The position numbers and the translations under genes are program-made. Shown here one piece after another: positions 45,079 to 53,928 of a stretch of DNA of 64,000 nt. The stretch's first letter is position 1. Each line of letters starts with the position of its first letter. This DNA is from Pseudobdellovibrionaceae bacterium (lineage in GTDB: Bacteria; Bdellovibrionota; Bdellovibrionia; Bdellovibrionales; UBA1609): assembly GCA_947444305.1 (NCBI GenBank), contig CANEZP010000006.1:62001-126000 (forward strand), given 5' to 3'. The notes beneath the pieces were generated by a model. That model saw only the letters and a list, made by a program, of their open reading frames with translations, searched no databases and was not told the DNA's origin.

Positions 45079-47625
45079 TCATTTGAGCAACGAGATCTTC
45101 TGCTTCACTTTGAAGAAGTCCGCCCAAGGATCTTTCTTACGGGTCGCCAGCCACTCGAGCGCTTTCGGGAGCGTGAAAGTGTTGGCGGCTTTTAGCTTCG
45201 CGAGTTCGGACCACTCTATGGGCATCGCGACCGCACTCTGAGCTCGGGCGCGCAGGGAATACGGCGAAACGGCCGTCGCGCCCCGCCCGTTCCGTAGATA
45301 ATCCAAAAAGATTTTACCTTTGCGCAGCTTCTTCGACATGTTCGCGGTGTAGAGATCAGGATGTCGCGAGACCATTTCTTGCGTCAGAGTTTTCGCGAAA
45401 CTTTTGACCGAATCCCAATCGTAACGGGCCTCGAACGGGAAGACGACGTGCAGTCCCTTCCCGCCGGTGGTCTTTAGGTAGCTTTTCAAACCGAGTTGTT
45501 TGAGGATGTCGCGCATCTCGAGTGCGCCTTCTTTAACGACGTCGAAGCCGAGACCTTCTTCCGGATCGAAATCCATGATGATCATGTTGGGTGAATCGAT
45601 TTGGCCAGGTTCTGAGCCCCAAGGATGAATCTCGAGAGTGCCGAGTTGCACGAGGTGCATCAGCCCCTCTTCGCTATCGACGCCGACCCAGGGCTCCTTG
45701 CCTTCGGTATCGGGAATCGCGGTAAGGGAATCCGGCATCTTCGGCATGTGTTTAGCGAAGAAACACATGCCCACCGCGCTCTGCTGACAACGCAACATCG
45801 AGATCGGCCGCCCCGCCAGGTGCGGCAAAATCCATGGGCTTACCGATTTGTAGTATTCGGCGACTTGGAGTTTCGTGATTTTTTCCTTCGGGTAAATAAC
45901 CCGGTCCGGATGGGTCACGTGCACGCCCGAGCCGGCTTTCTTTTTGCCTTTGGGCGAAGCTTTCAGTTCTGCTTTGAGCTTCGCTTTGATTGTCTTAGTT
46001 TTCTGCGTTGTTTTAGTCTGTGTCTTCGAAGTTCCGGTCTTCGTCTTCGAACCTTTTTTCGTTTTAGTGGCCACGGCTTCGACCTCCTTCGGTTTTTCGA
46101 TGGTGATTTCGCCCGGTGCTTTGTCCGAGCGAAGCCCTTTAAACACGGGCGCGCGCAAGTGACCGCCCTCGGTCATCTCGGCGTAAGAAACTTCGCACGC
46201 GAGTTCGGGTTTCACGTAATGCAGGCCACGCTCTTTGGGAGCGTTAAGGACGAACGGTGATTTCGGAGTCTCGAGTTTACGCAACTTTTTGTTAATTTCG
46301 CGTAGAAGTGCACCGTCGAAGCCGCTGCCGCAGCGGCCGGCGTATTTTAATTTTCCGTTCTCGTAAAACCCGAGCAACAGTGAACCGAACGCGAAGCGCG
46401 AACCTTCGGGGTCGGTGAAACCGCCGATCACGAACTCTTGTCGTTTGATGCATTTTACTTTGACCCAGTCGCCGCGCCGCCCGGAGGTGTAACCCGAATC
46501 CGCTTTTTTACAAATGATCCCCTCGAGGTCCATCGAGCAACTCGCCTCGATCATTTTGTCGCCGACGCCTTTGAAGTGTTCGCTGTAGCGAATCTTCTCG
46601 TCGCCTAAATCGCCGATTAATTCTTCGAGCTTTTCTTTGCGCTCGATCAAAGGTCGTTCGCGTAGATCTTCGCCGTCGAGGAAGAGAAGGTCGAAGATGT
46701 AAAAGATTAAGCTCTGGGTCGATTCGGATTTCATCGCGTTTTGGAGCTTTTGAAAGTTGCTCCGGCCGCTTTCGTCTTGGTAAACGATTTCGCCGTCGAA
46801 AACCGCGTTCTCGACGTCCATGTCCTTCAGTGCTTTGGCGAGGGCGCGATATTTCGCCGTCCAGTTATGACCGTTGCGGGTGTAGAGCGTGACCTCACCG
46901 GCGGCGACGTGCGCTTGAATCCGGTAACCGTCGAACTTTATTTCGTGTAACCACTCCGCGCCCTTTGGCGGTTTGTTCACCAGCTGGGCGAGTTGCGGAG
47001 GCGTGAACTCCGGGAGTTCGGCTTTTTTTTTACGTTGGGGAGCTTTAACAACTTTCGCGGCCTTTTCGACCTTCGCGGCGCCCCGGGTTTTGCCGCTGCC
47101 ATAATCGGCCACCGGCACGAGGACGGCGCCGTCTTCCGCGTACTTGTCATGTCGCTTGATCATAAGCCAATTGGGTTTCGAACTTTGACGGCCGGTACGG
47201 ACGAGTAGAAAATTGCCCTTCAGCTTTTTACCTTTAAGCTCGATTTCGAGCCGGCCCTTTTTCATCCCCGTCTCGAAGTCGTTAACCGGGATCCACGTGC
47301 CGTAATCCCAACGAAAAACCTCGCCCGCGCCGTATTCTTTGGCCGGGATGGTGCCTTCGAACTTCCAGTAATCGTAAGGATGATCTTCGACCTCAACGGC
47401 GAGACGTTTTTGCGCGGGGTCGAGCGAAGGTCCCTTCGGCACGGCCCAGCTTTTTAAAACGCCTTTCCACTCTAAGCGGAAATCGTAATGAAGGTGCGAG
47501 GCGTGATGCTCTTGCACCACGAACAAAAGATTCTTCTGCGTACTTTTGCCGGTCCGGACCTTCGCTTCGGGCTCGGAAGTTTTTTTGAAGTTCCGTTTCC
47601 GTTTGTATTCGGCGAGGGATTTCAC
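45079..47625 (-). CDS. ligD: ATP-dependent DNA ligase D (PE-LIG-POL)
   Basis: Repairs double-strand breaks with Ku by non-homologous end joining. 848 residues in the order phosphoesterase (about 30-160, EHHASHLHYDFRL with His41 and His45), ligase (Lys230 in EIKFDGYRI), then primase/polymerase (about 575-848, MDFDPEEG with catalytic Asp pair, and VTHPDRVIYPKEK). A Lys/Thr/Ala-rich linker of about 65 residues joins LIG and POL. The Pseudomonas LigD order is the same. Its start overlaps the ku stop by 4 nt. Confidence 0.95.
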   Translation of the reverse strand: MKSLAEYKRKRNFKKTSEPEAKVRTGKSTQKNLLFVVQEHHASHLHYDFRLEWKGVLKSWAVPKGPSLDPAQKRLAVEVEDHPYDYWKFEGTIPAKEYGAGEVFRWDYGTWIPVNDFETGMKKGRLEIELKGKKLKGNFLLVRTGRQSSKPNWLMIKRHDKYAEDGAVLVPVADYGSGKTRGAAKVEKAAKVVKAPQRKKKAELPEFTPPQLAQLVNKPPKGAEWLHEIKFDGYRIQAHVAAGEVTLYTRNGHNWTAKYRALAKALKDMDVENAVFDGEIVYQDESGRSNFQKLQNAMKSESTQSLIFYIFDLLFLDGEDLRERPLIERKEKLEELIGDLGDEKIRYSEHFKGVGDKMIEASCSMDLEGIICKKADSGYTSGRRGDWVKVKCIKRQEFVIGGFTDPEGSRFAFGSLLLGFYENGKLKYAGRCGSGFDGALLREINKKLRKLETPKSPFVLNAPKERGLHYVKPELACEVSYAEMTEGGHLRAPVFKGLRSDKAPGEITIEKPKEVEAVATKTKKGSKTKTGTSKTQTKTTQKTKTIKAKLKAELKASPKGKKKAGSGVHVTHPDRVIYPKEKITKLQVAEYYKSVSPWILPHLAGRPISMLRCQQSAVGMCFFAKHMPKMPDSLTAIPDTEGKEPWVGVDSEEGLMHLVQLGTLEIHPWGSEPGQIDSPNMIIMDFDPEEGLGFDVVKEGALEMRDILKQLGLKSYLKTTGGKGLHVVFPFEARYDWDSVKSFAKTLTQEMVSRHPDLYTANMSKKLRKGKIFLDYLRNGRGATAVSPYSLRARAQSAVAMPIEWSELAKLKAANTFTLPKALEWLATRKKDPWADFFKVKQKISLLK

Positions 47626-48467
47626 GCTTTCTTAGCCTTCTTCTTCGTAGCGCGCGGTTTTTTAGCTTTGGCTTCTAAGCTTTTGCGTAGAAGCGGCAAG
47701 AGATCGACGACTTTCGTTGCTTCAACCTCTTCGACCTCTTCGTCATCGCCTTCCTCAATCTCGTGGCCTTTACCCGCTTTGACCTTCGCTTTAATTCGCT
47801 TGAGGATATCGTCGTAATAGGTGTCTTTGTATTTCGACGGATCCCACTTGGTCGTCATACCGTCGATAAGATCTTGCGCCATCTTTAATTCTTTCGCGTT
47901 GTAGGCTCCCTTGCGCGATGTCCCCGCTAGGTAATCGGCTTCTTCGATGTCGAGCATCTCGTGCGGAAAGCGCAGCATTTCGCAAATCAAGTATTCGCCG
48001 CGCACCATGACCGCGCAAAGGTGTTGCTTGGTGCGGATCACGATTTTGCCGACGGCGACTTTCTTAGATTTTTCCAAAGCATCGCGTAGCAGGAAGTAGC
48101 CTTTTTCGCCGTTCTTTTGCGGCGCTAGAAAATATGGCTTATCGAACATCATCATATCGATTTCATCGAGCGGAACGAAATCCTCGATGTCTAAAGTTTG
48201 GGTGGCCTTCGGGTTCGCGGCCGCAAAATCTTGTTTAGTCATGACCACGAATTGATCGGGCTCGTATTCGTAGCCCTTAACGATGCGATCGTACGGAACC
48301 TCTTTACCGGTCGAAGCGCTCACCTTCTTGTATTTGATCGCCGAAAAATCTTTGCTGTCCAACATCTGGAAGGATAAGGCTTTCCCCTCCTTCGCGGTTT
48401 GTAAACTCACCGGGATGTTAAGCAATCCAAAGCTGATCGAACCTTTCCAAATTCCTCCGCGCGCCAC
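47622..48467 (-). CDS. ku: Non-homologous end-joining protein Ku
   Basis: Ring-shaped homodimer that binds broken DNA ends and recruits LigD. 281 residues. Starts at GTG with GGGAGG six nt upstream and opens MARGGIWKGSISFGLLNIPV, the Ku signature. Other matches are KGYEYEPDQFVVM and KIVIRTKQHLCAVM. The C-terminal tail is Lys/Ala-rich, as in other bacterial Ku proteins. Overlaps ligD by 4 nt, so the two form a repair operon. Confidence 0.96.
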   Translation of the reverse strand: MARGGIWKGSISFGLLNIPVSLQTAKEGKALSFQMLDSKDFSAIKYKKVSASTGKEVPYDRIVKGYEYEPDQFVVMTKQDFAAANPKATQTLDIEDFVPLDEIDMMMFDKPYFLAPQKNGEKGYFLLRDALEKSKKVAVGKIVIRTKQHLCAVMVRGEYLICEMLRFPHEMLDIEEADYLAGTSRKGAYNAKELKMAQDLIDGMTTKWDPSKYKDTYYDDILKRIKAKVKAGKGHEIEEGDDEEVEEVEATKVVDLLPLLRKSLEAKAKKPRATKKKAKKA

Positions 48468-51160: not shown

Positions 51161-52178
51161 TTTTACTCGGGCTCTGCCGCGGAAAACCGGTCGATCGGCC
51201 GTAGCGTGACGGATCCTCAAGGAATTCATCAACGCGTTCCTCGATGAATTTTGAAAGCAAGTTATTTTGGCCCAGTCCTTCTTCACGTTCGCTTTCGTTG
51301 CGCATCAGTAAACACGGCAAGCCTAAGTACGAGCACTCTTCCTGATTGCTTCCGCCGTCACTAATCAAGAACGACGCTTCGGAAAGTAATTTGATAAATA
51401 TGCTAAACGGCAGACGGTCGACGAAAGTAACCCCCCGCGCGGTCATTTCGGTGCGCCATTTCGGATCAAGCTTAGCCTTGGTCTGCGGGTGCAGAACCCA
51501 AGTCACGGGCCGCCGGGCCGCGGTTTTCTCAACGGTCTTTAGGATCATTTTCCATTTTGCGTTCGAGCGGAGATTCTCGAAGCGGTGAATGTTCACGAGC
51601 GCGAAAGGCCAAGCACTTTTACCCGGAGCTGAAAACAGGCGAACCGAATCGGCCAAGGTGTTGCCGCCGGTGTCGATAATCCCGGAGGTGATTCCGGCCG
51701 CGCGTAGATTATTCGCCGCCCCCGGGCCGGGAGCCATGTGCCACGTCACCGATCGCGAAACTAAGCGCCGGTTGATCTCTTCCGGGAAGGGTGAAAATAG
51801 GTTCGGCGAGCGAAGCCCGGCTTCGACGTGCGCGACCTTCGCCCCCACAACTTTGCCCCAGTGCGCGCCCACCAGCGTCGATAGCGTATCGCCATGAACA
51901 AGTATAATCCCATCGTCATACCAAAGCGGTTTATTGCGCCACGCCCGGGCGAACCACCTGAGCGCCGCGCCGGTCGTTTCGAGATCTCGTTCGCTGCTTA
52001 CGGGAGTCAGGATTTCACTCGGAGGGATGGCGAAGTCGGCGGCCTGTTTCACCAGATTGACCGGGCTTTGGCCCGTACTGACGATTTTCCAAGGTAAGCC
52101 ACGGTTCGAAGCTTCTTGAAGTACCGGGTAAATTTTAATGAGTTCGGCGGCGGTGCCGGCCACAAACCAGAGTTTCAT
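51129..52178 (-). CDS. UDP-N-acetylglucosamine 2-epimerase-like (WecB family)
   Basis: GT-B-fold enzyme of 349 residues. The start at 52178 (MKLWFVAGTAAELIKIYPVL) matches the family N-terminus. VHGDTLSTL, HVEAGLRS, FPEEINRRL and SDGGSNQEE are the usual WecB/MnaA motifs (HGDT, EAGLR, PEE, DSGG), with SDGGSNQE in place of DSGGLQEE. The product is likely ManNAc for surface glycan. The variant last motif may alter substrate. Confidence 0.85.
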   Translation of the reverse strand: MKLWFVAGTAAELIKIYPVLQEASNRGLPWKIVSTGQSPVNLVKQAADFAIPPSEILTPVSSERDLETTGAALRWFARAWRNKPLWYDDGIILVHGDTLSTLVGAHWGKVVGAKVAHVEAGLRSPNLFSPFPEEINRRLVSRSVTWHMAPGPGAANNLRAAGITSGIIDTGGNTLADSVRLFSAPGKSAWPFALVNIHRFENLRSNAKWKMILKTVEKTAARRPVTWVLHPQTKAKLDPKWRTEMTARGVTFVDRLPFSIFIKLLSEASFLISDGGSNQEECSYLGLPCLLMRNESEREEGLGQNNLLSKFIEERVDEFLEDPSRYGRSTGFPRQSPSKIIVDALAAEA

Positions 52179-52257: not shown

Positions 52258-53928
52258 ATGAAAAAACATTTTTTGTTTTTGCTGGCGCTGATGATCTGCC
52301 GGGCGACCGCCGCCGATCAGCTTTTGGTCCTTAGTGGCGGGGGCTCACCGCTCACGAACCACTACTCGCAGTATCTCCAGACGAAAACTCTGTTCAACGA
52401 TTTGAACGCGCGGTTTCCGCATATGAAACCCTCCGTGCTGTTCGGCGCGGGGAATCGCACAGGCTCGGAGCTCGTGCTGGCCGACACCCACCGTTTGGTC
52501 AAAAACGGCGAACTTTCTTTTCACGAACTTAAGCCCGGAATTATCGACGGCAACGTGCCCGCAACGCTCGCGAATTTGAACGCCTACTTCACGCAACCAA
52601 GTCTTAAACAAATGTCCGGCCAAGAAACGATGTTTCTTTTCGTGAGCGATCACGGCATGCCTTTCGTTTTGCCGAACGGTCAGGTTGCGCGCGCGTTCGA
52701 TAACAATTGTATTGAGATGTGGAACTTTCGCGCCGATTTACGTTCGGGCACGGTTGCGGAGGGCCCTTCGTCGCAACGATGCCTTTCGAAAGAACGATTG
52801 CGCGGCTTACTCACGACTCAGGTTTCGGCGGGCCGTGTTGTCTTCGCGATGACCCAGTGTTTTTCGGGCGGCTTCCACATGATGTCGGTGACCGCTAAAA
52901 ATAATTATCCCAGCGCGAATCCCCGCATCTGCGGCTTCACCGCCGTTCCCGAAGATACGATTGCTTCGGGTTGTACCCCCGACGTCGATGGTCCCGGCTA
53001 TCAAGGCTACGAACGCTCCTTTACCGAACACCTGACCGGCGTCGACGTCGTTACCGGGCATCGCCTACGGCCCGCCCGCATTTCTTTGCAAGACGCCCAT
53101 CGCGAAGCGACGCTTGAGGATGTGACGAAAGATATTCCGCTCGCCACTTCCGACTTCTACCTTTGGAAATGGGCGCTCGCGATCGCAAAAAATAGCTTCG
53201 TCCCCCGCACCTCCGTCCTGAAAGTACACCAGGTGCGCGCGTTGATCGAGCAAGCGCTCATCGGCCAACGTCAGTCCGAGAGTCGGGGTTACAAAAACAA
53301 AGAACGCTTTTTCACGAGTGCGCAAAAGGCCCTAGATTTGTATCCCGAATACCGCGCGATTTTTGCCGGTCCGCTTTCCGAACACGTGAAGCTTGAAGGT
53401 CAACTCGACGCAGAAGTGGCCGAGGCCGAACAAACGCTCGGCGTATACACGCCTACCCTGCAGGTCTCGCAAAGCGCTCTGCTTAACGAGTGGCATAAAG
53501 CCGTCGCCGCCGGGCTCACGCGCGCGAACGCGGTCGAGAAAGCGATCGAAAACAAAGTTTACGGCGGTACCGATGCCGACACGCTCGTTCTTTTATCGAT
53601 GTCCGTGCAGTCGGTGACCGTTCCCCCGACCGCGCGGATTCTAAGTGACTACCAAGGTAAGCGTGAAAGCTACGCCCTTGAATATGCTAAGCGTAACTTG
53701 CGCAAAGATCTTCGCGATCTCGCCCTGGCGATCGAGGATTTAAAGGTAACCACCGCGCAGATGGAAGAGCGCTACACGGAACTGATGAAGAAACATGGAC
53801 ACGTCCGCCGTTTGCTAATTTACCGGCAGGTGTTGGGCGCTTACAACGCGCTTGAAAAGATGGACGACAAAGTGGCGCTCAAAGAACTCGAAGGTCTTTT
53901 GGAATGCGAGATGGCCGAACTTAAATAG
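52258..53928 (+). CDS. Secreted clan CD (caspase-fold) cysteine peptidase-like protein
   Basis: A 556-residue exported protein; the signal peptide (MKKHFLFLLALMICRATAAD) defines the start at 52258. Two motifs of clan CD peptidases are present, each after a hydrophobic strand: ETMFLFVSDHGMP (His132) and RVVFAMTQCFSGGF (Cys201), the same spacing seen in legumain and caspase folds. The C-terminal 300 residues are helical and charged, with no known domain. It is likely a protease acting outside the cytoplasm; substrate unknown. Confidence 0.75.
   Translation: MKKHFLFLLALMICRATAADQLLVLSGGGSPLTNHYSQYLQTKTLFNDLNARFPHMKPSVLFGAGNRTGSELVLADTHRLVKNGELSFHELKPGIIDGNVPATLANLNAYFTQPSLKQMSGQETMFLFVSDHGMPFVLPNGQVARAFDNNCIEMWNFRADLRSGTVAEGPSSQRCLSKERLRGLLTTQVSAGRVVFAMTQCFSGGFHMMSVTAKNNYPSANPRICGFTAVPEDTIASGCTPDVDGPGYQGYERSFTEHLTGVDVVTGHRLRPARISLQDAHREATLEDVTKDIPLATSDFYLWKWALAIAKNSFVPRTSVLKVHQVRALIEQALIGQRQSESRGYKNKERFFTSAQKALDLYPEYRAIFAGPLSEHVKLEGQLDAEVAEAEQTLGVYTPTLQVSQSALLNEWHKAVAAGLTRANAVEKAIENKVYGGTDADTLVLLSMSVQSVTVPPTARILSDYQGKRESYALEYAKRNLRKDLRDLALAIEDLKVTTAQMEERYTELMKKHGHVRRLLIYRQVLGAYNALEKMDDKVALKELEGLLECEMAELK

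Follow-up and report, generated by a model that had tools for sequence, protein, structure and literature searches.

A Putatively Exported, Legumain-like Clan CD Cysteine Peptidase with a Predicted Helical C-terminal Domain from a Pseudobdellovibrionaceae Bacterium

In this study, a gene at 52258..53928 (+ strand) of a 64,000-nucleotide stretch of Pseudobdellovibrionaceae DNA (the window) was assigned to an exported clan CD (C13-like) cysteine peptidase by its open reading frame, its invariant dyad and its profile matches. Sequence profiles place the product of 556 amino acids (plus stop) among the clan CD cysteine peptidases, nearer to family C13 (legumain) than to C14. It is probably a Sec-exported endopeptidase with a His132/Cys201 dyad and a regulatory helical C-terminal domain anchored by a disulphide. 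The intact reading frame, the signal peptide, the invariance of the dyad, the profile relation to clan CD and C13, and the pattern of conserved cysteines were established directly.

Gene, Signal Peptide and Genomic Setting

The reading frame at 52258–53928 was intact, with coordinates exactly as first given. The same frame was open already from an upstream ATG at 52138. The ATG at 52258 led into a textbook signal peptide (MKKHFLFLLALMICRATA-AD) with a best 10-residue mean hydropathy of 3.15. By sequence and hydropathy, the signal peptide covered residues 1–19 (MKKHFLFLLALMICRATAA; 52258..52314, + strand), and signal peptidase I cleavage is probable near ATA-AD.

All relatives whose N terminus is intact had a strong hydrophobic export-type segment close to it. 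The signal peptide and these segments supported the first-pass annotation of the protein as exported. L020 and L021 had lipobox-like N termini, and such sister proteins look like lipoproteins. The annotation had also called export unusual, and this did not hold, given these signal-type segments in the phylum's relatives and an earlier precedent. A 2012 survey (PMC3501461) described 46 sequences in which the metacaspase domain is preceded by an N-terminal helix that may be a signal peptide, and legumain carries a signal peptide (PMC4357240). Since export of bacterial caspase homologues was in print as a possibility and legumain is itself equipped for it, export alone is unsurprising.

GC content and third-position GC of the gene were in line with those of the neighbouring genes, so the gene bore no mark of recent foreign DNA. 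On the left lay a gene for an Epimerase_2 protein and on the right an ORF without a match, both on the opposite strand. The neighbouring genes were compared between distant relatives, and none was shared; the peptidase gene stands alone. A reading as part of an operon or defence system was rejected because distant relatives had no common neighbours and PADLOC gave no match to the window protein. In three relatives, PADLOC gave a generic caspase match only. Elsewhere in the window (45079–48467), adjacent genes for LigD (ligase, primase-polymerase and phosphoesterase domains) and Ku formed a bacterial non-homologous end-joining pair.

Family Assignment

Searched alone against Pfam and NCBIfam, the window protein was recognised as no known family, and PF00656 at its gathering score matched neither this protein nor any other in its genome. 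The relation to PF01650 and legumain was found at family level. Pfam Peptidase_C13 matched 12 of the 26 members (best E 3.4e-9), and Peptidase_C14 matched 4 (best E 4e-4). The A1 profile match in G200 (4.4e-15) was a 676-aa ORF above the Pfam C13 cut-off. Against solved structures, the A3 domain profile reached legumain (9.5e-9), metacaspase-4 (5.8e-8), bacterial GSU0716 (1.3e-6) and GPI transamidase (1.8e-3). In the alignments with legumain, the His and Cys motifs were in register, and the loop that follows the strand with the Cys motif (aepdetasgC) was aligned with AANPRESSYAC.

A profile built from the nine closest members was compared with both families by hhalign. Small exported C13-like proteins were matched at prob 92.8 (E 4e-7) and C14 at prob 68.2 (E 4.7e-5), while reversed and shuffled controls gave at most 0.7. 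The same nine-member profile reached solved structures weakly (metacaspase MCA2, 0.037). The assignment of the window protein therefore runs through intermediates, since it has no Pfam match of its own and its closest profile is weak against structures. The first-pass annotation had proposed a caspase-fold clan CD peptidase. The clan was upheld by the profiles, and the nearest family proved to be C13 rather than the metacaspases.

Structure prediction was also carried out. The AlphaFold2 models of the window protein and L001 were of low confidence (pLDDT 48 and 40), and Foldseek found no meaningful match for either. The caspase fold is therefore based on sequence profiles and not on the model.

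Several known systems were compared with the window protein. Legumain, or asparaginyl endopeptidase (C13, PF01650; PDB 4aw9, 4fgu), shares the motifs of the dyad (DHG and CxSG, aligned in register), the aligned loop, a signal peptide, and a helical domain, predicted in the window protein, that follows the peptidase domain. It differs in that the Pfam C13 model misses the window protein, which is further set apart by Cys225, a conserved residue, and by the Cys-Glu motif in its C-terminal tail. Short exported C13-like proteins above the Pfam C13 cut-off were present in several genomes of the phylum (L050–L058, L066). They gave the best profile-profile match and share the signal peptide, TSHG and CYSGQF motifs and an FGC loop, but have about 240–270 aa and lack the helical C-terminal domain. 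Prokaryotic metacaspases and orthocaspases (C14, PF00656) share the clan CD dyad with a weaker profile match. Most of the phylum's C14 proteins compared here started at the catalytic domain without a signal peptide and carried the catalytic Cys in a D-[CS]-C motif.

Catalytic Domain and Dyad

The predicted caspase/legumain-type catalytic domain covered residues 20–304 (52315..53169, + strand), on the evidence of the A3 profile matches to legumain and metacaspases and the hhalign match to the C13-like set. The putative catalytic His132 lay in a DHG motif (52651..52653) aligned with TDHGS of legumain, and the putative catalytic Cys201 in a QCFSGGF motif (52858..52860) aligned with EACESG. Both residue numbers were confirmed, within VSDHG and MTQCFSGG. 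As the first-pass annotation had proposed, each motif followed a hydrophobic stretch (TMFLFVS and RVVFAMT), modelled as strands 124–131 and 194–200, though in a low-confidence model.

In the nine-protein alignment, the invariant residues were H132, G133, N150, W155, Q200, C201, G204–F206, C225–F227 and G238, followed by C239, Y251, F255, A280–H281, D292, P294, T297–S298 and L302. Across the 26 divergent relatives, only His132, Gly133, Cys201 and Gly204 of the catalytic domain were invariant. The dyad is thus no chance pairing, as it was kept in the 9 close and all 26 divergent relatives. Two residues before Cys201, the window protein has Thr (TQC) and legumain has Glu (EACESG); the relatives have A, S, V, I, T, N, G, D or E there. 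Given Thr in place of Glu, the Asn specificity of legumain should not be assumed.

C-terminal Helical Domain and Conserved Cysteines

Residues 305–556 (53170..53925, + strand) formed a predicted helical domain. Long helices were modelled at 373–417, 457–479 and 483–535, mostly at pLDDT 70–88; elsewhere the confidence of the model was too low to be of use. The domain had no Pfam or NCBIfam match and no significant sequence match among solved structures. The first-pass annotation of a helical C-terminal region without a known domain was borne out, and its length was corrected from 300 to nearer 250 residues. The C-terminal domain of legumain has about 110 residues and a death-domain-like fold (PMC4357240), whereas that of the window protein has about 250 residues and long helices. 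No sequence link between the two domains was detected.

The sequence of the C-terminal domain diverged quickly among relatives, but its end was conserved: 23/23 relatives with a complete C-terminal extension had a Cys close to the C terminus, and 20 of these had Cys-Glu. In the window protein this tail motif is Cys550-Glu551 (53905..53910, + strand). Two further cysteines lay in the catalytic domain. Cys225, in a CGF motif (52930..52932), is non-catalytic and was kept in 24/26 relatives. Cys239, in SGCT (52972..52974), was aligned with the Cys of the legumain RESSYAC loop and is a candidate disulphide partner of Cys550.

Cys239 was present in 14 members, one of them (L018) cut by a contig end. 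A Cys at the start of the helical domain was present in 10 others, and no member had both. The pattern is suggestive of a tail Cys that picks one of two alternative partners within the family. Repeated co-variation of the cysteines was rejected because the alternation mapped to a single change on the tree.

Some relatives carried additional elements. An EF-hand-like loop (DxNxDGxxSxxE) stood directly before the conserved Ala-His in 17/26 relatives (L018–L021, L029, L031, L032, L034–L036, L038–L041, L043–L045), suggesting calcium binding in these proteins. The window protein and the four relatives nearest to it have lost this loop. In L032, L034, L035, L038 and L040, the caspase-type domain was preceded by an additional N-terminal region whose CxxC motif looks thioredoxin-like. 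A thioredoxin domain was not assigned to these sister proteins: the fold was hinted at by weak profile evidence (glutaredoxin 0.27), and the region had no Pfam match.

Proposed Mechanism and Alternatives

The putative cysteine endopeptidase would be exported by the Sec pathway and would probably work in the periplasm or beyond. Cleavage would be catalysed by the His132/Cys201 dyad. In legumain, access to the active site is blocked by the C-terminal helical domain, which also makes the enzyme more stable (PMC4357240). By analogy, the helical domain of the window protein, which has a comparable position, is most likely a pro- or regulatory domain. It would be anchored through a disulphide of Cys550, probably with Cys239 in the loop by the substrate pocket. 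In an improbable extension of this mechanism, the disulphide of Cys550 to Cys239, or even to the catalytic Cys, would act as a redox latch that keeps the active site covered by the helical domain. Reduction would then free the enzyme, for example in the cytoplasm of another cell. Such a latch would be in keeping with the conserved non-catalytic cysteines across the family, whose number is odd, with the choice between two partners and with the sister proteins that carry CxxC in an N-terminal segment.

Other functions of a clan CD protein were considered. The protein might be an exported clan CD transpeptidase or ligase, comparable to GPI transamidase and peptide asparaginyl ligases, that attaches exported proteins to something rather than only cutting them. 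The A3 profile did reach GPI transamidase, and the ligase-type entry VdiPAL1 was matched below significance (0.48), but legumain entries scored far better and no neighbouring gene was conserved. Profiles cannot separate ligases from proteases among C13 enzymes. This function is rather unlikely. It is hardly likely that the protein is a catalytically dead peptidase serving for binding or as a scaffold. The conserved polar or acidic residue that known clan CD peptidases have two positions before the catalytic Cys is missing, and pseudo-orthocaspases are known, a number of which carry a TAT-like signal (PMC6426788). However, the dyad and its glycines were invariant in 26/26 relatives in which nearly everything else had changed.

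A different hydrolase with coincidental HG and CxxGG motifs is very improbable. One NCBIfam thioesterase model was weakly matched (0.02), but over residues 4–26 only, which is the signal peptide. Both motifs moreover lined up with those of legumain-type proteins across more than 100 residues.

Distribution and Significance

By single-sequence search, relatives were found in 3/141 genomes of the order and 10/369 genomes of the phylum, the window's own genome counted in both. Within the genus, three other species had no relative by this search. With the nine-member profile, a wider superfamily was reached in 42/369 genomes at E 0.01. The family proper can be no larger than this count, since more distant proteins are among the weaker matches. 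A search of viral contigs, phages and plasmids found no relatives. At L006 (G114:C19, 4748–5375), a broken relic of the peptidase gene was present. Parts of the C-terminal domain alone were matched, over two reading frames, and the catalytic domain was unmatched. The relic points to decay of the gene within the order.

In the literature searched, no paper was found linking Bdellovibrio with legumain- or caspase-type proteases. The family is apparently undescribed, though not exotic, in the phylum of the predatory Bdellovibrio. These exported legumain-like peptidases are largely missed by current domain libraries and are spread patchily across a phylum known for predators. If active outside the cytoplasm, they would be candidates for the processing of prey or envelope proteins and a possible source of new sequence-specific proteases. 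Their conserved Cys-Glu motif at the C-terminal end offers a concrete handle on how bacterial clan CD enzymes stay in check.
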